DNA from: Natrarchaeobius chitinivorans
GTDB lineage: Archaea > Halobacteriota > Halobacteria > Halobacteriales > Natrialbaceae
Direction of reading: 5' to 3'
NCBI RefSeq assembly: GCF_003841505.1
Contig: NZ_REGA01000006.1
Coordinates: 1 to 64,000, forward strand
Length of the DNA: 64,000 nt
Position 1 is the stretch's first letter. Every line of letters starts with the position of its first letter. Positions 47,527-50,362 of this stretch are shown piece after piece. Position numbers and translations under genes: made by a program. The notes beneath the pieces were generated by a model, which did not search any database, was not told the DNA's origin, and worked only from the letters and a program-made list of their open reading frames with translations.

Positions 47527-48363
47527 ATGGAAACTCCCTCCCGTGTGCGTTCGGCCAGCCCTCTCTGGGCGACGCTCGTCGCGTTCGGTCTCGCCGTCTT
47601 CGGTATCGTCGCGACCCAGTTTACCACGTTACCGGCGATTTTCCTCGAGCCGGCGTTGATCGAGTCACCGGGCGACACGTCCATCGGCGCGCGAGCACTT
47701 CTCATGACACTCAACTTCCTCGGGTTCGCTCTCGCGGGTGCGATCTACCTCGCCGCGACCGATCGGGGCTGGTCGTACGTCGATCTTCGCATGCCGACGA
47801 AACGCGGCTGGCTCTACGTTCTCGCGGGGATCGTCGGAAGTCTGGTGTTTTACTTTCTGGTGAGTATCCTGATTCAACTTCTCTCGTTACCGGCCACGGA
47901 CAATCAGGTGATGCAGTACATCGCCGGCGATCAGACGATGATTCTGGTCATGATCCTCATCGTCTTCTTTTTCAACGCCCCCGCCGAGGAGTTCCTCTTC
48001 AGGAACGTCATCCAGAAACGACTCTACGAGGCGTTCAGCCGATTCCAGGCCGTCCTCGTCGCGAGCGCGATTTTTGCCCTGATCCACTTCCCGGTGTACC
48101 TGGCCGCCTCCGGTGACCCCCTCGCGATCGGTCCCTCCGACCTGCTTGCTACCACCGTCCCGCTCGTGGTCGTCTTCGGTGGCTCGGTCATCTTCGGTTA
48201 CGTGTACGCCAAAACCGACAACCTCGTCGTTCCGACCGCGGCCCACGCCGCGTTCAACGCGTTCCAGTTCGGCCTCGTCTATCTCGCCCTCGAGTTCGAC
48301 CTCGAGACCGGCGAACCCGTACAGTCGCTGCTCGTCGACCTGCTCGCGGTCGTTCCAGTGTAG
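47527..48363 (+). CDS. CPBP-family intramembrane metalloprotease
   Basis: The 278-residue protein has about eight membrane segments and the CPBP/Abi (Rce1-like) motifs: EE in FFFNAPAEEFLFRNVIQKRL (about 155-175), the His in FALIHFPVYLAA and the third motif in PTAAHAAFNAFQ. These enzymes cleave proteins within the membrane; archaeal targets are unknown. The TAG stop (48361-48363) is only 2 bp before the 8-bp direct repeat that marks insertion of the regulatory cassette, so that insertion changed the gene's 3' flank but not its coding sequence. Confidence 0.92.
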   Translation: METPSRVRSASPLWATLVAFGLAVFGIVATQFTTLPAIFLEPALIESPGDTSIGARALLMTLNFLGFALAGAIYLAATDRGWSYVDLRMPTKRGWLYVLAGIVGSLVFYFLVSILIQLLSLPATDNQVMQYIAGDQTMILVMILIVFFFNAPAEEFLFRNVIQKRLYEAFSRFQAVLVASAIFALIHFPVYLAASGDPLAIGPSDLLATTVPLVVVFGGSVIFGYVYAKTDNLVVPTAAHAAFNAFQFGLVYLALEFDLETGEPVQSLLVDLLAVVPV

Positions 48364-48388
48364 ATCGGGTTCCAAGGGTGTCATAGAA

Positions 48389-48650
48389 CGGTGCGCATAC
48401 TCCCTTTGGGACTACCCGACGAACGGTTAGTACAGGTGAAGGACTTACCGCTGCCAGCATCCACGAATGAAGTGAGCGGTTCACTGCCGAAGCGAGCGAT
48501 GCCCGCGGAGGTGGCCTTTCTAGCGTAGATTTTTGCAAGCGGTTCGAGTGAGCGAAGCGAACGAGGACCCGCAGCAAAAAGGTGCTATACAAACACATTG
48601 AGTGCCCGAGTATCCGACGTGCGAGGACGTAGTGGCTCCGCAGCGACTTT
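48389..48650. other. Left arm of the cassette, no gene seen
   Basis: The stretch contains the partly palindromic GTTCGAGTGAGCGAAGCGAAC (about 48542-48562) and an A/T patch TAGATTTTTGC, but no supported coding frame. Confidence 0.45.
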
Positions 48651-49010
48651 CTACGATAGGTCTGCTTCGGTTGGCTCGTAGACCTGAATCCACCCGTCGC
48701 TCCGAACTTTCACGAGGTAATTTGTATACTGAAACTCGACAGTGCCGACACCTTGCCGAGAATCACCGGCCAGGTCTGGCCCGAAGAACGCGTCTTCAAT
48801 CGCTGGTATGTCCACAGATTCGTACACCGGTGGGGATTTCACCTCAGGCGGGGAGACGCCTTTCGCCTCCGCGATGGCGAATACGAGCGCGGTCGTGAGT
48901 TCTCCCTGTCCGTTGGGTTCGTAATGGCGCTGTGCTAGCTGTGACCAGTGCGTATCGGTACTGGTGGAGCCGTCTCCGTTCATGATTCCATCATCAGTCC
49001 GCTTACTCAT
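48651..49010 (-). CDS. HalOD1 output-domain protein
   Basis: The start at 49010 (MSKRTDDGIMNGDGSTSTDT) gives 119 residues. The core WSQLAQRHYEPNGQGELTTALVFAIAEAKGVSPPEV, then LYESVDIPAIEDAFF-like YESVDIPAIEDAFFG and FQYTNYLVKVRSDGWIQVYE, fits the haloarchaeal HalOD1 output domain, a small domain found alone or at the end of receivers in signalling. It overlaps the stop of the DUF7344-type gene by 8 bp, so translation is coupled. A regulatory partnership with that HTH protein is likely. The gene lies inside the transposon-like cassette. Confidence 0.85.
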   Translation of the reverse strand: MSKRTDDGIMNGDGSTSTDTHWSQLAQRHYEPNGQGELTTALVFAIAEAKGVSPPEVKSPPVYESVDIPAIEDAFFGPDLAGDSRQGVGTVEFQYTNYLVKVRSDGWIQVYEPTEADLS

Positions 49011-49443
49011 CCATCTCACTCCGGGCGTGCGTTTCCTGATTAGCGTCAAGGCTGGCACCTAATCCTTCGAGAGCGGTCATGACCTGTTCGGCGTGTTCGG
49101 CGGTCGTAATCGTCTCGGTCGCCTCGTCGAACGTAATTACGCTTTCATCCACCAGTTTCGGGACGTGAGCATGATACAGCGAAACGTACACTCTATCGCG
49201 CTGGTTTTCCGTTACTTCGTGTTCGGAAACGTCATTCTCCCACGCGGCGATTTTCGTCGCCAAGTCGGTCAGTGACCATTCGGTGTCTTCCAAGAGGGTG
49301 TAGCATAGGTAGCGTCGTCGGGAGTGTCCCAACGCCTCGTACACCGGTTCGATTTCCAAAACGGCGGGCGGTGGCAGTTGTTTTTCCGTAGACGCGGACA
49401 CGTTAGACGTTGCTTCCTCATCTGGGTCGGGTTCGCCAGCCAT
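49003..49443 (-). CDS. DUF7344-type winged-helix regulator
   Basis: The start at 49443 (MAGEPDPDEEATSNVSASTE) gives 146 residues. A winged-helix DNA-binding domain spans about 35-115: YEALGHSRRRYLCYTLLEDTEWSLTDLATKIAAWEN, then DRVYVSLYHAHVPKLVDESVITFDEATETIT. This is the ArsR-like HTH now called DUF7344, common in haloarchaea. It is the first gene of the cassette operon, with a TATA box 21-29 bp upstream and the HalOD1 gene overlapping its end by 8 bp. It may control its own operon or host genes near the insertion. Confidence 0.85.
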   Translation of the reverse strand: MAGEPDPDEEATSNVSASTEKQLPPPAVLEIEPVYEALGHSRRRYLCYTLLEDTEWSLTDLATKIAAWENDVSEHEVTENQRDRVYVSLYHAHVPKLVDESVITFDEATETITTAEHAEQVMTALEGLGASLDANQETHARSEMDE

Positions 49444-49463
49444 ACGAGAGTGAGAATACGAGG

Positions 49464-49472
49464 TAGTAAAAC
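49464..49472 (-). promoter_or_regulatory. TATA box of the cassette operon
   Basis: GTTTTACTA on the minus strand is 21-29 bp before the ATG at 49443, so the cassette brings its own promoter. Confidence 0.55.
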
Positions 49473-49724
49473 AGTTCCCCCTAAAACAGACGAAAATCGG
49501 GATTTTAATGCTGTACACGACCGTTTTTCGTTCTTATACGTTCCATGTGCGAACCTCTCGAACGAGTCGTAGTTTCCGACTCCTCTACTATTGATGGCAC
49601 CGGGGGCGTGTGAGGTCGTAGCGTCTTCGGAGGGACGTGACAACGACCTCCTGCTGGTATATACGCACGTGTAATGACCGTGCTATTCGTCTGAGAGAGG
49701 TAGAAATTAATCCCATGAGAAGCC
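49473..49724. other. Right arm of the cassette, no gene seen
   Basis: This A/T-richer stretch (AAAATCGGGATTTTAATG near 49492-49509, CGTTTTTCG near 49522) holds no supported gene. AAAATC/GATTTT forms a short hairpin. Confidence 0.45.
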
Positions 49725-49806
49725 TTCTATGACACCCTCCGGGTTCCGGTTATCCTCACAGCGACTCCGCGTTCGCTTGCCAGCTCCGGCGGACCCGCGT
49801 CCGTCC

Positions 49807-49815: not shown

Positions 49816-49837
49816 CGCCCGCAGGCGAGTGGTGGAC

Positions 49838-50362
49838 ATGTCCCATGCGAAGGGCGACCGCCGCGAGCGGGAACTCGTCAACGAACTCGACGAGGCCGGC
49901 TTCGCGGTGATGCGTGCGCCCGCGAGCGGTTCGGCAACAGAGCGCGAACTCCCCGACGTCCTCGCCGGCGACGGCGAAATCTTCTACGCGATCGAGGCCA
50001 AATCGAGCTCCGGCGACCCGATCTACCTCTCCGGCGAGGAGGTCGAGGCGTTGATCTACTTCGCGCAAAACTTCGGCGCGAAACCCCGTATCGGCGTCCG
50101 TTTCGACCGCGAGGAGTGGTACTTCTTCCATCCGGCCGACCTCCACGTCACCGACGGCGGTAACTACCGGGTCAAGAAGGAAACCGCGATCGCGGAGGGC
50201 ACGGACTTCCCGGAGTTCGTCGGTCGCTCGGAGAAGGTAACTCTCGAGGAAGCGGCCAACGCCAGCGGCGACGACGGTCCCGACGAGGACGTCCTCCGCG
50301 TCCTGAACGCCGTCGAACAGGGTGTAATGGACGTCGAGGAGGCCGCCGAGTTACTCGAGTGA
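49838..50362 (+). CDS. hjc: Holliday junction resolvase Hjc
   Basis: The start at 49838 ([21 protein letters not shown]) gives 174 residues. The nuclease site is complete: the N-terminal Glu in RERELVNEL (residue 10 or 12), Asp in [10 protein letters not shown] and ExK in [17 protein letters not shown]. Hjc cuts four-way junctions symmetrically during recombination. A C-terminal acidic extension (about 135-174, [20 protein letters not shown]) is found in haloarchaeal forms. Hef and RadA genes are elsewhere in the window. Confidence 0.95.

Follow-up and report, generated by a model that had tools for sequence, protein, structure and literature searches.

The window, a 64,000-nucleotide stretch of the Natrarchaeobius chitinivorans genome, contains a transposon-like element of 1,366 bp (positions 48374-49739) between a CPBP/Rce1-like protease gene and the Holliday-junction resolvase gene hjc (Table 1). 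The element has terminal inverted repeats (TIRs) matching at 14 of 15 positions, is flanked by an exact 8-bp target-site duplication (TSD), and carries two genes, encoding a DUF7344 protein and a HalOD1 output-domain protein, which overlap by 8 bp (ATGAGTAA). A sequence-only reading of this DNA had proposed the repeats, the two overlapping genes, and the lack of a transposase. The repeats were re-found and constituted the sole case in the 64-kb window of an exact 8-bp direct repeat immediately outside a 15-bp inverted repeat (one mismatch or fewer), 0.2 to 3 kb apart; the same arrangement occurred in none of 60 Markov-2 synthetic sequences of 64 kb. Both cargo genes were recovered with Pfam, their overlap was confirmed, and a tblastn search for an ISH11-type transposase inside the element was negative.

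Table 1. Features of the element and its flanks (positions in the window)
Feature	Position	Strand	Details
CPBP/Rce1-like protease gene, flanking, intact	47527..48363	+	Pfam PF02517, 2.2e-20
TSD, left copy	48366..48373	.	CGGGTTCC, identical to 49740-49747
Left TIR	48374..48388	+	AAGGGTGTCATAGAA; 14/15 vs right TIR; ends as in the ISNpe17/ISH11-type IS at G000:C20:1-1069
Left-end module, conserved across the cassette family	48374..48436	+	Inner core AACGGTTAGTACAGG; family consensus AACGGTAAGTACAGG
Hairpin-rich noncoding filler, 150 bp	48437..48586	.	Common to 291-bp cargo-less members; missing from sister cassette L076
HalOD1 output-domain protein gene (cargo gene 2), 119 aa	48651..49010	-	Pfam PF18545, 1.4e-12
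DUF7344 protein gene (cargo gene 1), 146 aa	49003..49443	-	Pfam PF24035, 1.2e-25
Operon upstream region with putative promoter	49444..49660	-	Conserved in sister cassette L076 (alignment)
Right-end module, conserved across the cassette family	49661..49739	-	Right-end profile score 41.5
Right TIR	49725..49739	-	GAGGGTGTCATAGAA; 14/15 vs left TIR
TSD, right copy	49740..49747	.	CGGGTTCC, identical to left copy
hjc Holliday-junction resolvase gene, flanking, intact	49829..50362	+	Pfam PF01870, 1.1e-33

The TSD begins 2 bp past the CPBP stop codon and the element itself 10 bp past it, and the insertion left the CPBP gene, the hjc promoter, and hjc undamaged, as the earlier reading had stated. In all three same-genus genomes, CPBP and hjc were adjacent, with no insertion between them. 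The single copy of CGGGTTCC that should mark an exact empty site was not preserved in the three congeners, because the CPBP-hjc spacer has diverged. The boundary sequences demonstrate insertion of the element by transposition with an 8-bp target duplication.

A sister cassette in another genus (L076; 1,214 bp) carried the same two genes, 86% identical, between a different, 9-bp TSD (ACGATAGCA). Element positions 1-213 were 85% identical to one 291-bp cargo-less member, and the hairpin-rich filler had a predicted fold of -51.5 kcal/mol. Over 79 bp, the right-end module was 86% identical to its counterpart on the AArc-T1-2 plasmid. A putative promoter motif, AACTGTTTTAC-ACCTCGTA, lies directly upstream of the DUF7344 start and, as read by eye, is mostly retained in L076 and in a Haloarcula taiwanensis plasmid element (L126); an operon with its own TATA box is plausible. 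The DUF7344 protein is predicted to be an ArsR/MarR-like winged helix: the best Foldseek matches of its AlphaFold model (mean pLDDT, 73) were ArsR/MarR regulators, at weak scores (best E value, 0.036), and an ArsR protein carried by another cassette matched the DUF7344 profile weakly. A sequence search of DUF7344 against solved structures gave no match. The DUF7344 dN/dS ratios of 0.09 to 0.26 across carriers, where dS was measurable, indicate that the gene is under purifying selection. Both families were strongly expanded in the 4.57-Mb genome (44 DUF7344 and 51 HalOD1 matches, mostly away from left ends of the cassette family); 49 HalOD1 copies have been reported in Haloterrigena turkmenica (PMC5847659).

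Constant ends and variable cargo in Natrialbaceae

The leftmost 100 bp of the element matched 65 of 125 genomes of Natrialbaceae, as well as plasmids from, among others, Natrinema, Haloterrigena, Halostagnicola, and Natronorubrum. These blastn matches, an alignment, and an anchored conservation profile (104 copies) defined the left-end module. An exact degenerate left-end pattern, too strict for a census, matched 6 of 392 genomes of the order, all Natrialbaceae, and the left end was absent from viral contigs. The family sample consisted of 100 fetched loci seeded by similarity to the left end of the window element and is therefore not a random census. End profiles were built from copies with duplications, and right ends were sought within about 6 to 7 kb of left ends.

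The fetched loci contained 107 left ends, 65 with and 42 without a right end; solo left ends are apparently common. TSDs flanked 26 of the 65 paired elements (22 exact, of 7 to 9 bp, and 4 with one mismatch), compared with an expectation of 0.3%; flanks mispaired from different elements gave 0.25% exact and 0.07% one-mismatch TSDs. Many copies are decayed, since 42 of 107 left ends lack a right end and 39 paired elements lack a TSD. The paired ends recur widely, as the earlier reading required, and L076 is another carrier of this gene pair, with its own TSD. Paired elements ranged from 265 bp to several kilobases, the two longest being doubtful and without duplications. That reading had also called an element carrying nothing but a regulator and a signaling output domain unusual; cargo as such is common in this family, where 45 of the 52 pairs that span 450 bp or more contained an open reading frame (ORF) of at least 100 aa. 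None of the 65 paired elements encoded an ISH11-type transposase, and no larger autonomous element with cassette ends was found in twenty 18-kb stretches.

The ends are conserved, and the interiors are unrelated to each other. Cargo flanked by TSDs included, by Pfam, a cupin, a class I tRNA-synthetase-like protein, a TrkA-C protein, and TrmB; ArsR, AHSA1, and DUF1801 proteins on a Halostagnicola larsenii plasmid; a methyltransferase with DUF1428; a metallo-beta-lactamase-fold (MBL) protein; FKBP with PadR; an ABC permease with a DtxR-type regulator; REC, HalOD1, BAT/HTH_10, and DUF7344 proteins together; HTH_63; Bles03; and a long PAS protein assigned as kinase-like by reading. Cargo orientation was balanced (11 versus 10). 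All four family left ends in the N. chitinivorans genome adjoin HalOD1, DUF7344, or REC genes. Two of them belong to a fused cassette (C23:14814-17633; L014:2814-5633) in which two left ends and one right end lie inside one TSD (CTATGGAT) together with REC, HalOD1, BAT/HTH_10, and DUF7344 genes. The fourth (L019, contig C5 near 214043) is followed by a DUF7344-HalOD1 pair and then an IS6-like transposase ORF, and no right end was found for it.

The constant left and right parts are approximately 65 and 75 bp long, and cargo-less relatives measure 284 to 300 bp. Conservation drops to background immediately inside the left core AACGGTAAGTACAGg and, at the other end, just inward of the right core GCA.GTGTAGTGAACGGATAGTTC, and these inner cores rank among the most conserved portions of the ends in the conservation profile. 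The left and right cores resemble each other weakly at one offset (6.4 of 12); core pairing did not track within elements at the single offset tested, which was a different one, and a role for the cores as direct-repeat recombination sites is a tentative lead.

Cargo at fixed insertion sites

In loci with matched flanks, homology extended from the left flank to about +62 to +69 (once +83) inside the element and ended there; it restarted about 74 to 80 bp (once 138 bp) before the right end and continued into the right flank, with an unrelated interior. Five sites had both flanks conserved between species (L098/L121, L114/L197, L072/L218, L082/L208, and L221+L223/L229), and at these sites the flanks and ends were inherited, the cargo differed, and the junctions were sharp at the inner edges of the ends. 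Two of the five lie in named plasmids with conserved neighbors. At one of them, bounded by three small genes and a SWIM gene, Haloterrigena turkmenica pHTUR03 carries a methyltransferase and DUF1428, and Natrinema zhouii carries an amphi-Trp protein with a TrmB-type regulator; at the other, flanked by a DNA-binding-protein gene on one side and a PadR-type gene on the other, the same plasmids carry either an HTH_63 protein or an FkbM methyltransferase. In most comparisons, end identity at turnover sites (e.g., 1.00/1.00 and 0.95/0.83) was above the family medians of 0.75/0.64, and because these ends are mostly more alike than those of unrelated members, they are taken to descend from one insertion. 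When the left flank alone was compared, 21 pairs had different interiors and 2 had the same interior, one-sided cases being weaker evidence.

Cargo between inherited ends thus appears to have been replaced in situ at some sites; recombination at the inner end edges, which are conserved, is the probable route. It is rather unlikely that the apparent exchange reflects independent insertions into a shared hot spot or the differential loss of parts of a larger ancestral cassette. Preferred targets are possible for IS-type elements, and nested or fused cassettes such as C23:14814-17633 exist, but the ends at the five two-flank sites are mostly more alike than those of unrelated members, and differential loss would still require deletions that stop at the inner edges of both ends. 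Replacement in place could, more speculatively, be one level of a two-level system in which the unit transposes by its ISH11-type ends and the cargo is separately exchanged at the inner cores (left, AACGGTAAGTACAGG; right, GCA-GTGTAGTGAACGGATAGTTC); the high conservation of these cores and the swap junctions adjoining them are in keeping with this idea, which we regard as doubtful. Equally tentative is the proposal that core exchange would use a dedicated or co-opted recombination system, amounting to integron-like shuffling in archaea without an integron integrase.

Cognate insertion sequences and the nature of the element

The N. chitinivorans genome contains a complete insertion sequence (G000:C20:1-1069) with the same ends as the cassette, 95% identical to ISNpe17 and 89.5% identical to ISH11, which encodes a 330-aa DDE_Tnp_1 transposase uninterrupted by stops; the 13-bp core GGGTGTCATAGAA has 11 exact occurrences in this genome. 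Copies of the IS in relatives have the same ends of about 27 bp and duplications of mostly 7 to 9 bp (e.g., GATGAAAA, TTAGAGAC, TCTTATTG, and GGCGGGCTA). Cassette left ends occurred in 32 of 46 genomes with the IS versus 33 of 79 without it (odds ratio, 3.2; P = 0.003; uncorrected for kinship). A close IS was absent from 33 of the 65 cassette-bearing genomes, which counts against mobilization by an ISNpe17/ISH11-type IS. We infer the acting transposase, because the IS and the cassettes have only about 27 terminal bp in common, the conserved subterminal blocks being missing from the IS. The proposal of a mobile regulatory module moved in trans by a related IS stands as to the transposase-less mobile module, which is supported by the recurrence of the paired ends, the second copy of the gene pair with its own TSD, the same-end IS, and the lack of the insertion in 3 of 3 congeners; movement in trans is the part that we infer.

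Taken as a whole, the window element is very probably a nonautonomous transposon of the mobile insertion cassette (MIC) kind, belonging to a Natrialbaceae family with constant ends and variable cargo. ISH11/ISNpe17-like terminal repeats and conserved subterminal blocks would bracket passenger genes, here a putative winged-helix regulator and a HalOD1 signaling protein under their own promoter; the transposase would most likely be supplied in trans by the ISNpe17/ISH11-type IS of the same genome, and recombination at the inner end edges would probably replace the cargo at some sites.

The same gene pair also travels in other elements. DUF7344-HalOD1 modules (DUF7344 81 to 85% identical) adjoin IS5-type transposase genes on plasmids of Halorussus limi, Halosimplex aquaticum, and Haloarcula taiwanensis. 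The element on H. taiwanensis pNYT2 (CP019157.1; L126:3094-5135) comprises an IS5-type transposase, HalOD1, and DUF7344 genes between perfect 16-bp TIRs beginning GGCTCTGTTGAAATCC and an 8-bp TSD (GGTATTTT) and is, by its gene content and boundaries, a transporter IS. A 1,136-bp Natronococcus pandeyae element (L177:4909-6044) with the gene pair, the pNYT2 end type (TIR, GGCCCTGTTGAAACCC; TSD, GGAGCTGT), and only transposase residues 1-65 stands, on the same grounds, midway between transporter ISs and cassettes. The pair itself is a recurrent passenger, which unrelated IS5-type elements carry as well. Element boundaries were not seen around many relatives of the pair. Only a strict boundary search was used, because the loose form (7-bp repeat, up to four mismatches) gave false positives at 120 of 171 random places; the strict form gave one match in 559 random places, itself the L177 element.

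The pNYT2 and N. pandeyae elements form a series of the kind expected if the window element were a decayed transporter IS whose own transposase gene, once next to the regulator pair, had been removed by an internal deletion. That series has another end type, however; the window ends are of the ISH11 type, no transposase remnant was found, the non-cargo part corresponds to a 291-bp cargo-less element, dozens of other cargos travel between these ends, and no intact same-ended element with a transposase was found in 65 paired elements or twenty 18-kb stretches, which leaves this origin distinctly unlikely. The recurrence of the pair with both ISH11-type ends and IS5-type transposase genes, and the position of all four family left ends of the genome beside HalOD1, DUF7344, or REC genes, could alternatively mean that the pair is a transposition control module, hence its carriage by two unrelated IS lineages. 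We regard this as most unlikely, as most family cassettes carry other genes, the 44 DUF7344 and 51 HalOD1 genome matches mostly do not lie beside family left ends, and many relatives of the pair lack element boundaries. Chance flanking of two host genes by independent end fragments, which the frequency of solo left ends (42 of 107) might favor, is refuted by the target duplications (exact for the window element and for 22 of the 65 pairs versus 0.25% of mispaired flanks) and by the same cargo and ends having different TSDs in two genera, and its probability is practically nil.

MICs are known from a handful of bacterial elements noticed chiefly through resistance genes. The window element combines IS-type TIRs, a TSD, and passenger genes without a transposase with an intact cognate-ended IS in the genome, and by these sequence features it is an MIC as defined in publications (PMC3913671 and PMC3129680); the former summarizes the definition and the trans-mobilization of MIC231A1, and the term is from the latter. 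Other classes were rejected: MITEs are noncoding and under about 600 bp, and this element has 1,366 bp with two conserved genes; the transposase of an ISH11/ISNpe17 IS is absent by tblastn; a transporter IS has its own transposase with passengers, as L126 does; and a composite transposon has two complete IS or MITE copies, where this element has one left half and one right end.

MIC231 of Bacillus cereus and the qnrD/qnrS2 mics likewise have IS-like inverted repeats, a TSD, a passenger, no transposase, and expected trans-mobilization; the present cassettes differ in being archaeal and in their unrelated IS5/ISH11-type ends, long subterminal blocks, very wide cargo, and fixed-site turnover. ISH11 and ISNpe17, which are IS5-like haloarchaeal elements, share the terminal 27 bp or so and duplications of mostly 7 to 9 bp, whereas the cassette lacks their transposase and they lack its subterminal blocks. 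In the Tn3-derived TIME/TIME-COMP elements of Pseudomonas, miniature ends also acquire varied modules and move them in trans (PMC4133298), but these belong to another transposon family and are flanked by whole miniature copies instead of single left and right halves. Haloarchaeal MITEs (Haloquadratum HqIRS and ISH2 type) are also transposase free with ends like those of resident ISs; such transposase-free elements have been reported as mostly noncoding and up to about 520 bp, with a likely protein ORF in the ISH2 type only (PMC3119063). The pNYT2 transporter IS holds the same pair beside a transposase and has other ends. Integron gene cassettes offer an analogy only, a constant frame with exchangeable single-gene cargo; the present element has no integrase or attC-like array and moves with target duplication.

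No description of a haloarchaeal family of such cassettes was found in a search of the open-access literature. What is apparently new is an archaeal MIC family with constant subterminal ends, a very wide range of cargo, and turnover of that cargo in place. Present in about half of 125 genomes, and with cargo that takes in regulators, sensor kinases, transporters, and enzymes, the family would be a general haloarchaeal gene-shuttling route, which could help to explain numerous and patchy signaling genes such as HalOD1. Cargo replacement between inherited ends raises the testable question of gene loading into a transposon frame without an integrase.

Two minor observations concern individual copies. 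Cassette ends adjoin a ComEC/Rec2 and DUF3006 gene pair, on different sides, on two plasmids, one from Natrinema gelatinilyticum (L237) and one from AArc-T1-2 (L127), a possible recurrent cassette neighborhood. In one contig (G071:C2:697 and G071:C2:96971; L214 and L213), a left end was duplicated at 100% identity together with 615 bp of its interior and 300 bp of flank.
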